DNA of 64,000 nt from Muribaculaceae bacterium (GTDB taxonomy: Bacteria > Bacteroidota > Bacteroidia > Bacteroidales > Muribaculaceae), in assembly GCA_029051525.1 (NCBI GenBank), contig JAIDKG010000099.1:1-64000 (forward strand). Reading direction: 5' to 3'. Below the pieces are notes generated by a model. It did no database searches, was not told where the DNA came from, and saw nothing but the letters and a program-made list of their open reading frames with translations. This document shows, one piece after another, positions 23,491-43,267 of the stretch. Every line of letters starts with the position of its first letter. Position 1 is the stretch's first letter. A program made the translations under genes and the position numbers.

Positions 23491-26157
<2,667 letters not shown>

Positions 26158-40392: not shown

Positions 40393-41898
40393 TTAGCCGC
40401 AATGCCAGAACTTGCGCACCACCTCGAGCATCTCTTTCGGATTACCCTCGAGTTTGCGGCGCAGGTTGGCGTCTTTGTGCTTGCGGAGCTTGTTGATGAT
40501 GCCGTCGATCAGCGCGGGCGAGAATACATCGTATTTCTCGAAGTCCTCGCGGTTGGCGGCAAGTGCATCGGCCGATGCCTCGCAGCTGTCGGGGAGCGAC
40601 TTGAGCGATGCGAGCTTCTCTTTATTCTCATCGTTGTGGATGTTGACGCTCACATACATCTCCTCGGCACGCTTCAGTGCATCCTCATGCTCGAAACCGG
40701 TGCGGGCTGCCACCACCATGCCGGCAATGAGCTGATACACATCGGCCGAGCAGTCGGCCGAGCGCAACTCCGCAGTCTGCTTCTGAGGTGCAGACATGCG
40801 CGAATCGCTCTCCAGCGGATTGGCCTGCGAGCACATGTCGATCTTGCCGGTCCAGCCCAGAGGCACGCGCACCAGAACCGAGCGGTTGCGGTCGCCCCAG
40901 CATATCGATGTGGGAGCCTCCTGATGGGGCACGAGGCGGAAGTAGCTTGTGGGCACCTTGTTGCCGAAGGCGGTGATGGCATCGGCATGGTCGAGAATAC
41001 CGGCGATGGCCTTGCGGGCCACGTCGCTCAAGCGGCCGTCGGCATCGGTCATCATATTCTGATCACCCTTCATCACCTTGAAGTGGATGTGCAGGCCGCT
41101 GCCGGCCTTGCCGGCGGTGATCTTCGGTGCGAAGGTCACATCATAGCCCTTGCGGGCTGCCAGACCACGGATAATCCATTTGGCCACCATCAGATTGTCG
41201 GCAGCCTGAATTGCCGGCACGGGGAGGAACTCTATCTCGTTCTGCTCATAGATCTTGTCGTCGAGAGTAAAGTTGCCCACCTCGTTGTGGCCATATTTGA
41301 TCTGACCACCGGCCTGGGCAATCATCGCCATACATTCGGCGCGGAAGTCGCTGAATTTCGAATAGGGAGCCGACTCATGATAACCCTTCTGGTCGGAGGC
41401 GGGGAATATGCCGGGATCGGTAGAAATCACATAGTATTCCAGCTCACCCATAGCATAGAAATCCATGCCGGTCACCTCGTGGAATGACTCCACAGCCTTG
41501 CGCAGAGTGTATTCGGGCGAAGAGTGAAGCGGCTTACCCTCCTTGTCGAAGAAGGATGCGAGCATAGTGAGCGTAGGAATCTCTGCAAAGGGATCCACGA
41601 AAGCTGTGCTGAATCGGGGTATTACATAGAGGTCGCTATTGCCGGCCTCGATGAAGGGGAAGAGTGAAGAGCCGTCCACACGCTCGCCATAGCTGAGGAT
41701 CGAGTCGAGATAGTCGGCATCATTGATTACGAAATTGAGGGTCTTCAGACGATTATCGTCGGCAGGATACATGAAATTGATCATGCGGATACCGTTCTCC
41801 TCCACAAAACGGATGATATCCTCTTTGCGGATCTCTGAAGGCTGCTTCTGCAGATACTGCACCACCTTATTGGGGCAGAGTTTTACTGAGTTGTTCAT
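40393..41898 (-). CDS. glnA: glutamine synthetase
   Basis: AGSGLHIHFKV, FRLVPHQEAPTSICWGDRNRSVLVRVPLGW; ~500-aa GS of the Bacteroidales type. Confidence 0.93.
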   Translation of the reverse strand: MNNSVKLCPNKVVQYLQKQPSEIRKEDIIRFVEENGIRMINFMYPADDNRLKTLNFVINDADYLDSILSYGERVDGSSLFPFIEAGNSDLYVIPRFSTAFVDPFAEIPTLTMLASFFDKEGKPLHSSPEYTLRKAVESFHEVTGMDFYAMGELEYYVISTDPGIFPASDQKGYHESAPYSKFSDFRAECMAMIAQAGGQIKYGHNEVGNFTLDDKIYEQNEIEFLPVPAIQAADNLMVAKWIIRGLAARKGYDVTFAPKITAGKAGSGLHIHFKVMKGDQNMMTDADGRLSDVARKAIAGILDHADAITAFGNKVPTSYFRLVPHQEAPTSICWGDRNRSVLVRVPLGWTGKIDMCSQANPLESDSRMSAPQKQTAELRSADCSADVYQLIAGMVVAARTGFEHEDALKRAEEMYVSVNIHNDENKEKLASLKSLPDSCEASADALAANREDFEKYDVFSPALIDGIINKLRKHKDANLRRKLEGNPKEMLEVVRKFWHCG

Positions 41899-41952: not shown

Positions 41953-42178
41953 AAAGCTAAAGCCCTTTAAGCTAAAGCCCTTAAAGCCCCTAAAGCCCTT
42001 AAAGCCCTTAAAGTCCTTAAAGTCCCTAAAGTCCTTAAAGTCCCTAAAGTCCCTAAAGTCCTTAAAGTCCTTAAAGTCCTTAAAGTCTTTAAAGCCCTTA
42101 AAGCCCTTAAAGCCCTTAAAGCCCTTAAAGTCCTTAAAGCCTTAAAGTCCTTAAAGTCCTTAAAGCTCTTAAAGCCTC
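41953..42178. repeat. 9-bp minisatellite TTAAAG[TC]CC, ~23 regular copies
   Basis: Near-perfect 9-nt period from 41972, one 8-nt unit; lies between the predicted glnA promoter and the glnA start. Confidence 0.97.
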
Positions 42179-42233
42179 CCCCCCGGCCAATAAGCGCCAA
42201 TCGGCTCAAAGCCTCAGCCACTTTGACTCACTG

Positions 42234-42265
42234 CAAATTTACGAAATTTTTTCGATGTGCCAAAA
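42234..42265 (-). promoter_or_regulatory. Bacteroidetes-type promoter for glnA
   Basis: Minus strand TTTTG-N19-TAAATTTG. Confidence 0.55.
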
Positions 42266-42358
42266 CATTTTCCACCATGAATCTGTTCTATTACCAAAGA
42301 AGATAAGAAATCGTTTCATGATGTTAGGTTAGTTCGAAAAATGTATTATAGACACCAC

Positions 42359-42395
42359 TAAAGCTGTTGCTTGTGAAAGTAGCAGCTTTATTTTT
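42359..42395 (+). terminator. hairpin with T-tract (terminator-like)
   Basis: TAAAGCTG...CAGCTTTA with wobble-extended stem followed by TTTTT. Confidence 0.45.
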
Positions 42396-42556
42396 GCACC
42401 CACCCTATCCGCAGTCGCTCGCGACTCATGGGGGAGAATACAAGCGAATCCACCCGGCTTCGAGGTCTGCACTCCGATGGAGTGCTGCCTGTAAGCACGG
42501 ATGGATCCGCTCAGTGCGATATCGGGAGATATCAGTGGCTATGTCAGTGTCTGGGC

Positions 42557-43267
42557 TTAGTCGGCCGAAGAGGGGCTTTCGGGGGCAATCAGCTTATAGC
42601 CTTTGCCGTGGATATTGATGATTTCGATATCCGGGTCCCCCTTGAGGAGTTTGCGAAGTTTGGTGATATACACGTCCATGCTGCGGGCGTTGAAATAATT
42701 GTCGTCGACCCAGATGGTCTTCAACGCATAGTTGCGCTCCAGCACATCGTTGAGGTGCTCACACAGCAGGGTGAGCAGTTCCGATTCTTTTGTGGTGAGT
42801 TTGGTGGTGGAATCGTTGGCGATAAGCACCTGTTTCTGGGTATCGAAGGTGAATTTACCAAGTTTGTAGACGGTGATTTCTTTGTCGCGCTTACCCTTCA
42901 CACGGCGCAGGATGGCATTGATGCGCACCACCAGCTCCTCCATCGAGAAGGGCTTGGTGATGTAGTCGTCGGCTCCGATCTTGAAGCCTTCGAGCACATC
43001 CTCCTTGATACTCTTGGCGGTGAGGAAGATGATAGGCACCTCGCCGTTGACGTTGCGTATCTCCTGAGCCAAAGTAAACCCATCCTTCTTCGGCATCATC
43101 ACATCGAGCACACAGAGGTCATATTTATTCTTTAGAAATGCCTTGTAACCCTTCTCTCCATCATTGCAGAGATCGGCATTGTAACCCTTCGCCTGCAGAA
43201 ATTCGCGAAGCAGCATCCCGAGGTTCTCGTCATCCTCGCAAAGTAGAATTTTCAGTTTATTATCCAT
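42557..43267 (-). CDS. OmpR-family response regulator (RprY-like)
   Basis: KILLCEDDENLGMLLREFLQAKGY, LCVLDVMMPKKDG, winged-helix C-terminus. Confidence 0.94.
   Translation of the reverse strand: MDNKLKILLCEDDENLGMLLREFLQAKGYNADLCNDGEKGYKAFLKNKYDLCVLDVMMPKKDGFTLAQEIRNVNGEVPIIFLTAKSIKEDVLEGFKIGADDYITKPFSMEELVVRINAILRRVKGKRDKEITVYKLGKFTFDTQKQVLIANDSTTKLTTKESELLTLLCEHLNDVLERNYALKTIWVDDNYFNARSMDVYITKLRKLLKGDPDIEIINIHGKGYKLIAPESPSSAD

Follow-up and report, generated by a model that had tools for sequence, protein, structure and literature searches.

A nonamer array in the predicted glnA leader of a Muribaculaceae bacterium as a probable solo copy from a proposed TIGR04258 protein–repeat pair

Introduction

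Short tandem repeats between bacterial genes are mostly regarded as products of slippage or as markers for typing, and the question of why one unit recurs at many loci, or across unrelated species, has so far been without an answer. The nearest described repeats are the TAACTGA heptamers (PMC4679880), known from Beggiatoaceae, Cyanobacteria and some Bacteroidetes and frequently located immediately before a start codon, and BrickBuilt, the minisatellite-MITE of Porphyromonas gingivalis (PMC4596501). REPtrons combine dispersed intergenic repeats with a cognate gene that is flanked by them, and protein and repeat co-evolve (PMC3116915, PMC8266576).

The array described here, located in front of the glutamine synthetase gene glnA of a Muribaculaceae MAG, resembles each of these in part. 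Like the TAACTGA heptamers, it belongs to short direct tandem repeats that are intergenic, scattered and patchy across phyla (PMC4679880), and like BrickBuilt, it is a dispersed intergenic minisatellite of Bacteroidales (PMC4596501). With the REPIN/RAYT systems it shares dispersed intergenic repeats, a cognate gene flanked by them and a joint evolution of repeat and protein, the gene here being of the TIGR04258 family.

Results

The array and the predicted glnA leader

The window, i.e. the whole stretch of 64,000 nucleotides that was analysed, contains the following features around the array, where G021 and G539 denote two relatives used for comparison.

40393–41898, minus strand: glnA, type I-like glutamine synthetase of 501 aa (PF00120, 1.6e-56; TIGR00653, 1.9e-64, below its cut-off)
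41957–42177, plus strand: the array together with degenerate edge units (unit walk, 24 units)
41973–42174, plus strand: the putative solo array of family A, TTAAAG(T/C)CC (TRF, 22.6 copies)
42234–42241, minus strand: −7 box TAAATTTG of the predicted glnA promoter (sequence; TAAATTTG in G021, TAATTTTG in G539)
42261–42265, minus strand: −33 box TTTTG of the predicted glnA promoter (sequence; conserved in G021 and G539)
42557–43267, minus strand: rprY, which encodes a response regulator and lies upstream of the glnA promoter (444 bits with NCBIfam NF051850, over its cut-off)

TRF analysis assigned to the array a period of 9, 92% matches and a score of 292, by far the strongest tandem repeat of the window, and a two-unit pattern matched it 21 times versus 0.24 expected in shuffles. 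Both results confirmed the original prediction of a 9-bp array of about 23 copies with one 8-nt unit, which is located near 42134; the units read (T/C)TAAAG(T/C)CC, the CTAAAG units being an additional variant. The unit contains at most a 7-bp odd quasi-palindrome and is not a palindromic REP. No Rfam family matched at the gathering score, and the sub-threshold matches were chance matches only, mostly to microRNA families.

The predicted glnA promoter, TTTTG-N19-TAAATTTG at 42265–42234 of the minus strand, had been proposed to lie upstream of the array, and this position is credible because the promoter is conserved in G021 and G539, both of which lack the array. As the array is placed between this conserved promoter and glnA, it is very probably transcribed as part of the predicted leader; to this extent the proposed location in the glnA mRNA leader holds, as a prediction from sequence. 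The predicted leader of 333 nt has a folding energy of −115.5 kcal/mol (z −5.9). TTAAAG is on the plus strand and hence antisense to glnA, so that the glnA mRNA would carry the hairpin-forming GGNCUUUAA strand. This strand of the window array is predicted to fold into a regular hairpin far better than shuffles do (z −9.4), and a regular hairpin was likewise obtained with the GGNCUUUAA strand of all tested genus arrays of at least 70 bp; the UUAAAGNCC strand (UUAAAG) of the window array is unstructured (z 0.05). In view of this strand-dependent folding, the orientation of an array could matter.

Both G021 and G539 also conserve a block that lies upstream of the promoter (~42265–42400 of the window), and near folP a related block is present in this genome and in G021. 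On the plus strand, the block ends near 42357–42396 in a terminator-like hairpin with a T run behind it; its minus strand contains a short ORF (MKRFLIFF). The block may represent a small RNA or else a leader element.

Dispersal of family A and empty sites

Arrays of the family A unit TTAAAGNCC are found at seven loci of this MAG, on contigs C20, C23, C33, C83, C88, C117 and C140; two of the arrays reach contig ends, so that the true number of loci is probably higher. Such arrays were present in 5 of 25 genomes of the genus, in 5 of 99 sampled genomes of the family and in 3 of 393 sampled genomes of the order. When 84,980 species genomes were scanned for exact 27-mers, 43 stretches were obtained, nearly all from Bacteroidales (Muribaculaceae, Prevotellaceae, Tidjanibacter), the clear matches outside this order being one Desulfobacterales and one Lachnospiraceae record. 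The reversed pattern gave essentially no matches in this genome and in the genus genomes, and viral contigs yielded neither an exact array nor a relative of the partner protein described below. All genomes compared are drafts with home-made gene calls, and the genome-wide tandem-repeat counts were taken from samples, ~0.75 Mb for this genome and 0.4 Mb for either of two relatives.

When the array was sought in the glnA leaders of relatives, as the original prediction had suggested, none was found in G021 or G539, whose GlnA proteins are 95% and 92% identical to that of the window: both retain the promoter and the upstream block, and both have a short leader. In G021, the nearest relative checked, folP, a thioesterase gene and porX are also array-free where this genome has arrays; neither a family A array nor, within the 400 kb sampled, a non-coding nonamer array was detected in G021. 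By this comparison, the arrays are recent lineage-specific gains at unrelated genes. The leader structure of glnA and other essential genes can thus differ between sister species through repeat insertion.

Placement, strand and unit variation

About 45 arrays in five genus genomes are mostly located in short intergenic gaps; often the array runs from the upstream stop codon, or from a point directly past a −7 box, to within some tens of bases of a start codon. A scatter of arrays free of any association with leaders had been named beforehand as one finding that would speak against a leader element. This finding was largely borne out, by the scatter over seven loci beside unrelated genes and by the array-free glnA of two close relatives; the placement is, however, not random, as leaders and intercistronic gaps are favoured. 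Between co-directional genes of the genus, TTAAAGNCC (TTAAAG) was in sense orientation in 26 cases and antisense in two (p 3e-6, based on a codon-usage gene caller), the window array being one of the exceptions; outside the genus the orientation is unbiased (17:12). A fixed insertion target was rejected, since the flanks differ between loci, and comparison of the flanks of the ~45 arrays by eye revealed no terminal repeat common to them.

In the composition of the variable position 7 of the unit, loci of one genome group together (permutation p 5e-5). This clustering speaks for copying or exchange between loci and not for independent slippage. The commonest unit variants are the pairing-compatible transitions T1C, A5G and C9T. 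Conservation of an RNA structure through unit variants was considered and dropped, T2C and G6A being no commoner than incompatible changes.

Partner genes beside the arrays

The family A array on contig C20 starts at the stop codon of a gene encoding a 181-aa TIGR04258 (four helix bundle suffix) protein, with 72 bits against a cut-off of 40; the same protein scores 30.4 with TIGR02436 (cut-off 24) and 27.0 with PF05635, below 33.8. Of 70 genomes searched, 40 contained a total of 73 TIGR04258 genes, this genome contributing four; 14 control genomes had none. Among the 56 genes scoring at least 55 bits, 46 lie within 300 bp of a period-9 array, whose unit varies from gene to gene, versus 22 of 499 control ORFs drawn from three genus genomes (Fisher p 2e-40); the other 10 of the 56 had no detectable period-9 array, which argues against the pairing of gene and repeat. 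Among 17 divergent TIGR04258 genes, a period-9 array was present in two, and the strongest array had a period of 10 in 10 of the 17, e.g. GATTAATCNN, so that protein class and period (9 or 10) are associated (p 9e-8). The divergent genes (L322–L335), whose ORFs are often ~250 aa long, have decamer arrays at their flanks, or octamer arrays in two cases.

Protein identity correlated with unit distance (50 loci, Mantel r 0.64, p 0.0002), although co-descent of a physically linked gene and array can also produce such matching; units agreed within two mismatches in 80% of protein pairs at least 60% identical, versus 3% of those at 40–50% identity. The TTAAAG (family A) clade, which takes in loci found from the DNA pattern alone in other Muribaculaceae and one Prevotella, comprises 13 proteins, whose genes occupy at least 11 distinct neighbourhoods, with a matching neighbour gene in one locus pair only (G072 and G060). 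These varied neighbourhoods suggest that the gene moves together with the array. Beside these partner genes, the array was in sense orientation in all 12 decidable cases.

Neither G021 nor G539 has a TIGR04258 gene. Against the pairing, the genus genomes G017 and G014 contain ~20 and ~10 family A arrays, respectively, and neither shows an intact family A partner gene; owing to these exceptions, the link between gene and array is only moderate within the genus (Fisher p 0.016). A partner gene with arrays on both sides might have dropped out of a short-read assembly, or recombination between its arrays might have deleted it.

Other repeat families of this genome and relatives

In this genome, family A abuts the TIGR04258 gene of contig C20, family B (CTCTGAGNN) that of C18 and family C (GTCNGACNN) that of C97, and all three families are dispersed, whereas six scrambled control units gave no array in the sample of this genome. 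Family D (CGAGATTCT, contig C99) was rejected as a dispersed family, as no array of three exact units was present elsewhere in the sample. The window also holds a copy of family C:

26084–26155, plus strand: family C array (GTCNGACNN; CCGACCNGT), forming the codons of the C-terminal tail of clpB (TRF)

There, CCGACCNGT encodes the ClpB tail SDLSDQSD... (clpB, 23491–26157); the ClpB tail of G021 has a different sequence and is not array-encoded. Composite gaps of G017 (L128, L133, L139, L142) show a TTAAAG array, GATTAATCATG decamers and CCTAAAA heptamers in this constant order, and G021 has intergenic arrays of the heptamer type (CCTAAAA, AGGCTTT) in place of nonamers (L227–L246). Finally, many contigs of this MAG (ends L150, L156–L160, L169, L172, L195, L196, L204, L206) terminate in shared repeats such as TTCCTTCTTCGACTCGCAAAATCCACTC, a dispersed repeat of greater length at which the assembly breaks.

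Predicted fold of the partner protein

The best of five AlphaFold2 models, computed from three sequences, was all-helical with a pLDDT of 78, the other four remaining below 50. In Foldseek this model resembled the S23-family structures 2gsc and 2rld and the DGR ribonucleoprotein 8ub7 chain B (8ub7_B), with probabilities of 0.97–1.00 and non-significant E-values, and a three-member profile retrieved nothing credible from solved structures. The partner protein is thus predicted to have the S23/IVP/Avd helical fold. Proteins of this type form barrel-like oligomers that bind nucleic acid, and an oligomer reading consecutive units would account for the fixed unit length of each protein class.

Discussion

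We consider the glnA array to be a solo copy of family A, the dispersed repeat of a TIGR04258 protein–repeat pair, with a probability of roughly 0.6. Related proteins keep related units, and gene and array lie together between unrelated genes across species, which suggests that the pair moves. We propose that a TIGR04258 protein recognizes its cognate unit as single strand, and that through this recognition arrays are copied into gaps between genes. The recognized strand would be UUAAAGNCC, the one in sense orientation beside the partner gene and mostly also beside host genes. Solo arrays would then be non-autonomous copies or leftovers, and the glnA copy would have inserted into the leader in the rarer orientation. 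Against this reading stand the lack of a known catalytic domain in the TIGR04258 protein that would explain a copying activity, the unbiased orientation outside the genus and the non-significant Foldseek E-values. The wider proposal, for which we see even chances, is that TIGR04258 proteins and their cognate 8-, 9- or 10-bp arrays constitute an undescribed class of self-spreading elements of Bacteroidales, the geometry of the protein setting the unit length and its sequence the unit sequence, with solo arrays such as that of the glnA leader as non-autonomous copies.

A function of the array specific to glnA was not supported. The original prediction of a dedicated regulatory element, whose variable copy number in the leader could tune glnA expression, has in its favour the conserved upstream promoter and the strong predicted hairpin in the mRNA strand, but the array is also found at six other, unrelated loci, the glnA genes of the relatives are array-free and the orientation is unusual for the genus, which makes such tuning very unlikely. 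Most likely glnA is a bystander of array insertion, and its expression is perhaps altered by the array. Still less credible, to the point of being almost negligible, is a REPIN-like element that a Y1 (RAYT/IS200-type) transposase would mobilize: the dispersed intergenic repeats and the cognate gene do resemble REPtrons (PMC3116915, PMC8266576), but their unit does not correspond to a REP hairpin, arrays occur without a Y1 gene in G014, and three Y1 genes occur without a family A array in G018. With the presence of Y1 (PF01797) uncorrelated with that of arrays across 16 genomes, this transposase was rejected as the mover.

Two further explanations address the dispersed arrays as a whole. TRAP, the trp RNA-binding attenuation protein, is an oligomer that reads tandem NAG triplets in RNA, and the four-helix protein could similarly be an RNA-binding regulator, ring-shaped, with the leader arrays as its selected operator sites. 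Such a regulon would suit the location of arrays in leaders and intercistronic gaps, their sense orientation beside the partner gene (12/12 decidable cases), the unstructured UUAAAG strand and the way unit length tracks protein class; we nevertheless regard it as unlikely, for the array sites are not conserved between close species, their host genes are without evident common function, solo arrays outside the genus are orientation-unbiased and the glnA copy is antisense. Neutral hitchhiking, in which slippage expansion and unknown host recombination would have spread the arrays with the four-helix gene as an inert passenger of the cassette, appears improbable too. The gene-less arrays of G017 and G014 are in keeping with it, and linkage alone yields a correlation between protein and unit; yet the linkage holds across proteins only ~40% identical in spite of the turnover of unit sequence, protein class predicts unit length, and several genes of one genome each abut a different unit.

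Among the papers searched, none names TIGR04258 and no relevant one prints the array unit; the NCBIfam curator note on TIGR04258 may contain an earlier remark on flanking repeats. A protein family in which each member abuts its own unit, and each class has its unit length, makes the question of why such units recur directly testable. If the proposed pairing is true, it would provide a function for a protein family named only by its fold, and a repeat-spreading system without a recognized transposase.

In its logic, but not in its parts, the pair looks like a REPtron, one that would work without a transposase. In contrast to REPIN/RAYT systems, the arrays show no association with a Y1 HUH transposase, their partner is a four-helix-bundle protein, and tandem 9-bp arrays take the place of palindromic REP doublets. 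The TAACTGA heptamers have a 7-bp unit of a single sequence, and for them generic RNA-binding candidates only, and no partner gene, are proposed in the text consulted (PMC4679880). BrickBuilt differs in its 23-bp unit, in its leader, tail and inverted-repeat ends and, by its description in the text consulted, in the lack of a partner gene (PMC4596501); no terminal repeats like those of MITEs of this type were seen in the nonamer arrays. On the protein side, the partner is above the TIGR02436 cut-off, and its predicted fold resembles that of the S23/IVP proteins 2gsc and 2rld by probability, not by E-value, and that of the DGR Avd protein (8ub7_B), compared by fold only; it differs from S23/IVP and Avd proteins in carrying the TIGR04258 suffix and in its linkage to tandem arrays instead of 23S rRNA inserts. 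TRAP, of a different protein family, offers a possible analogy only, that of an oligomer on tandem short RNA units.
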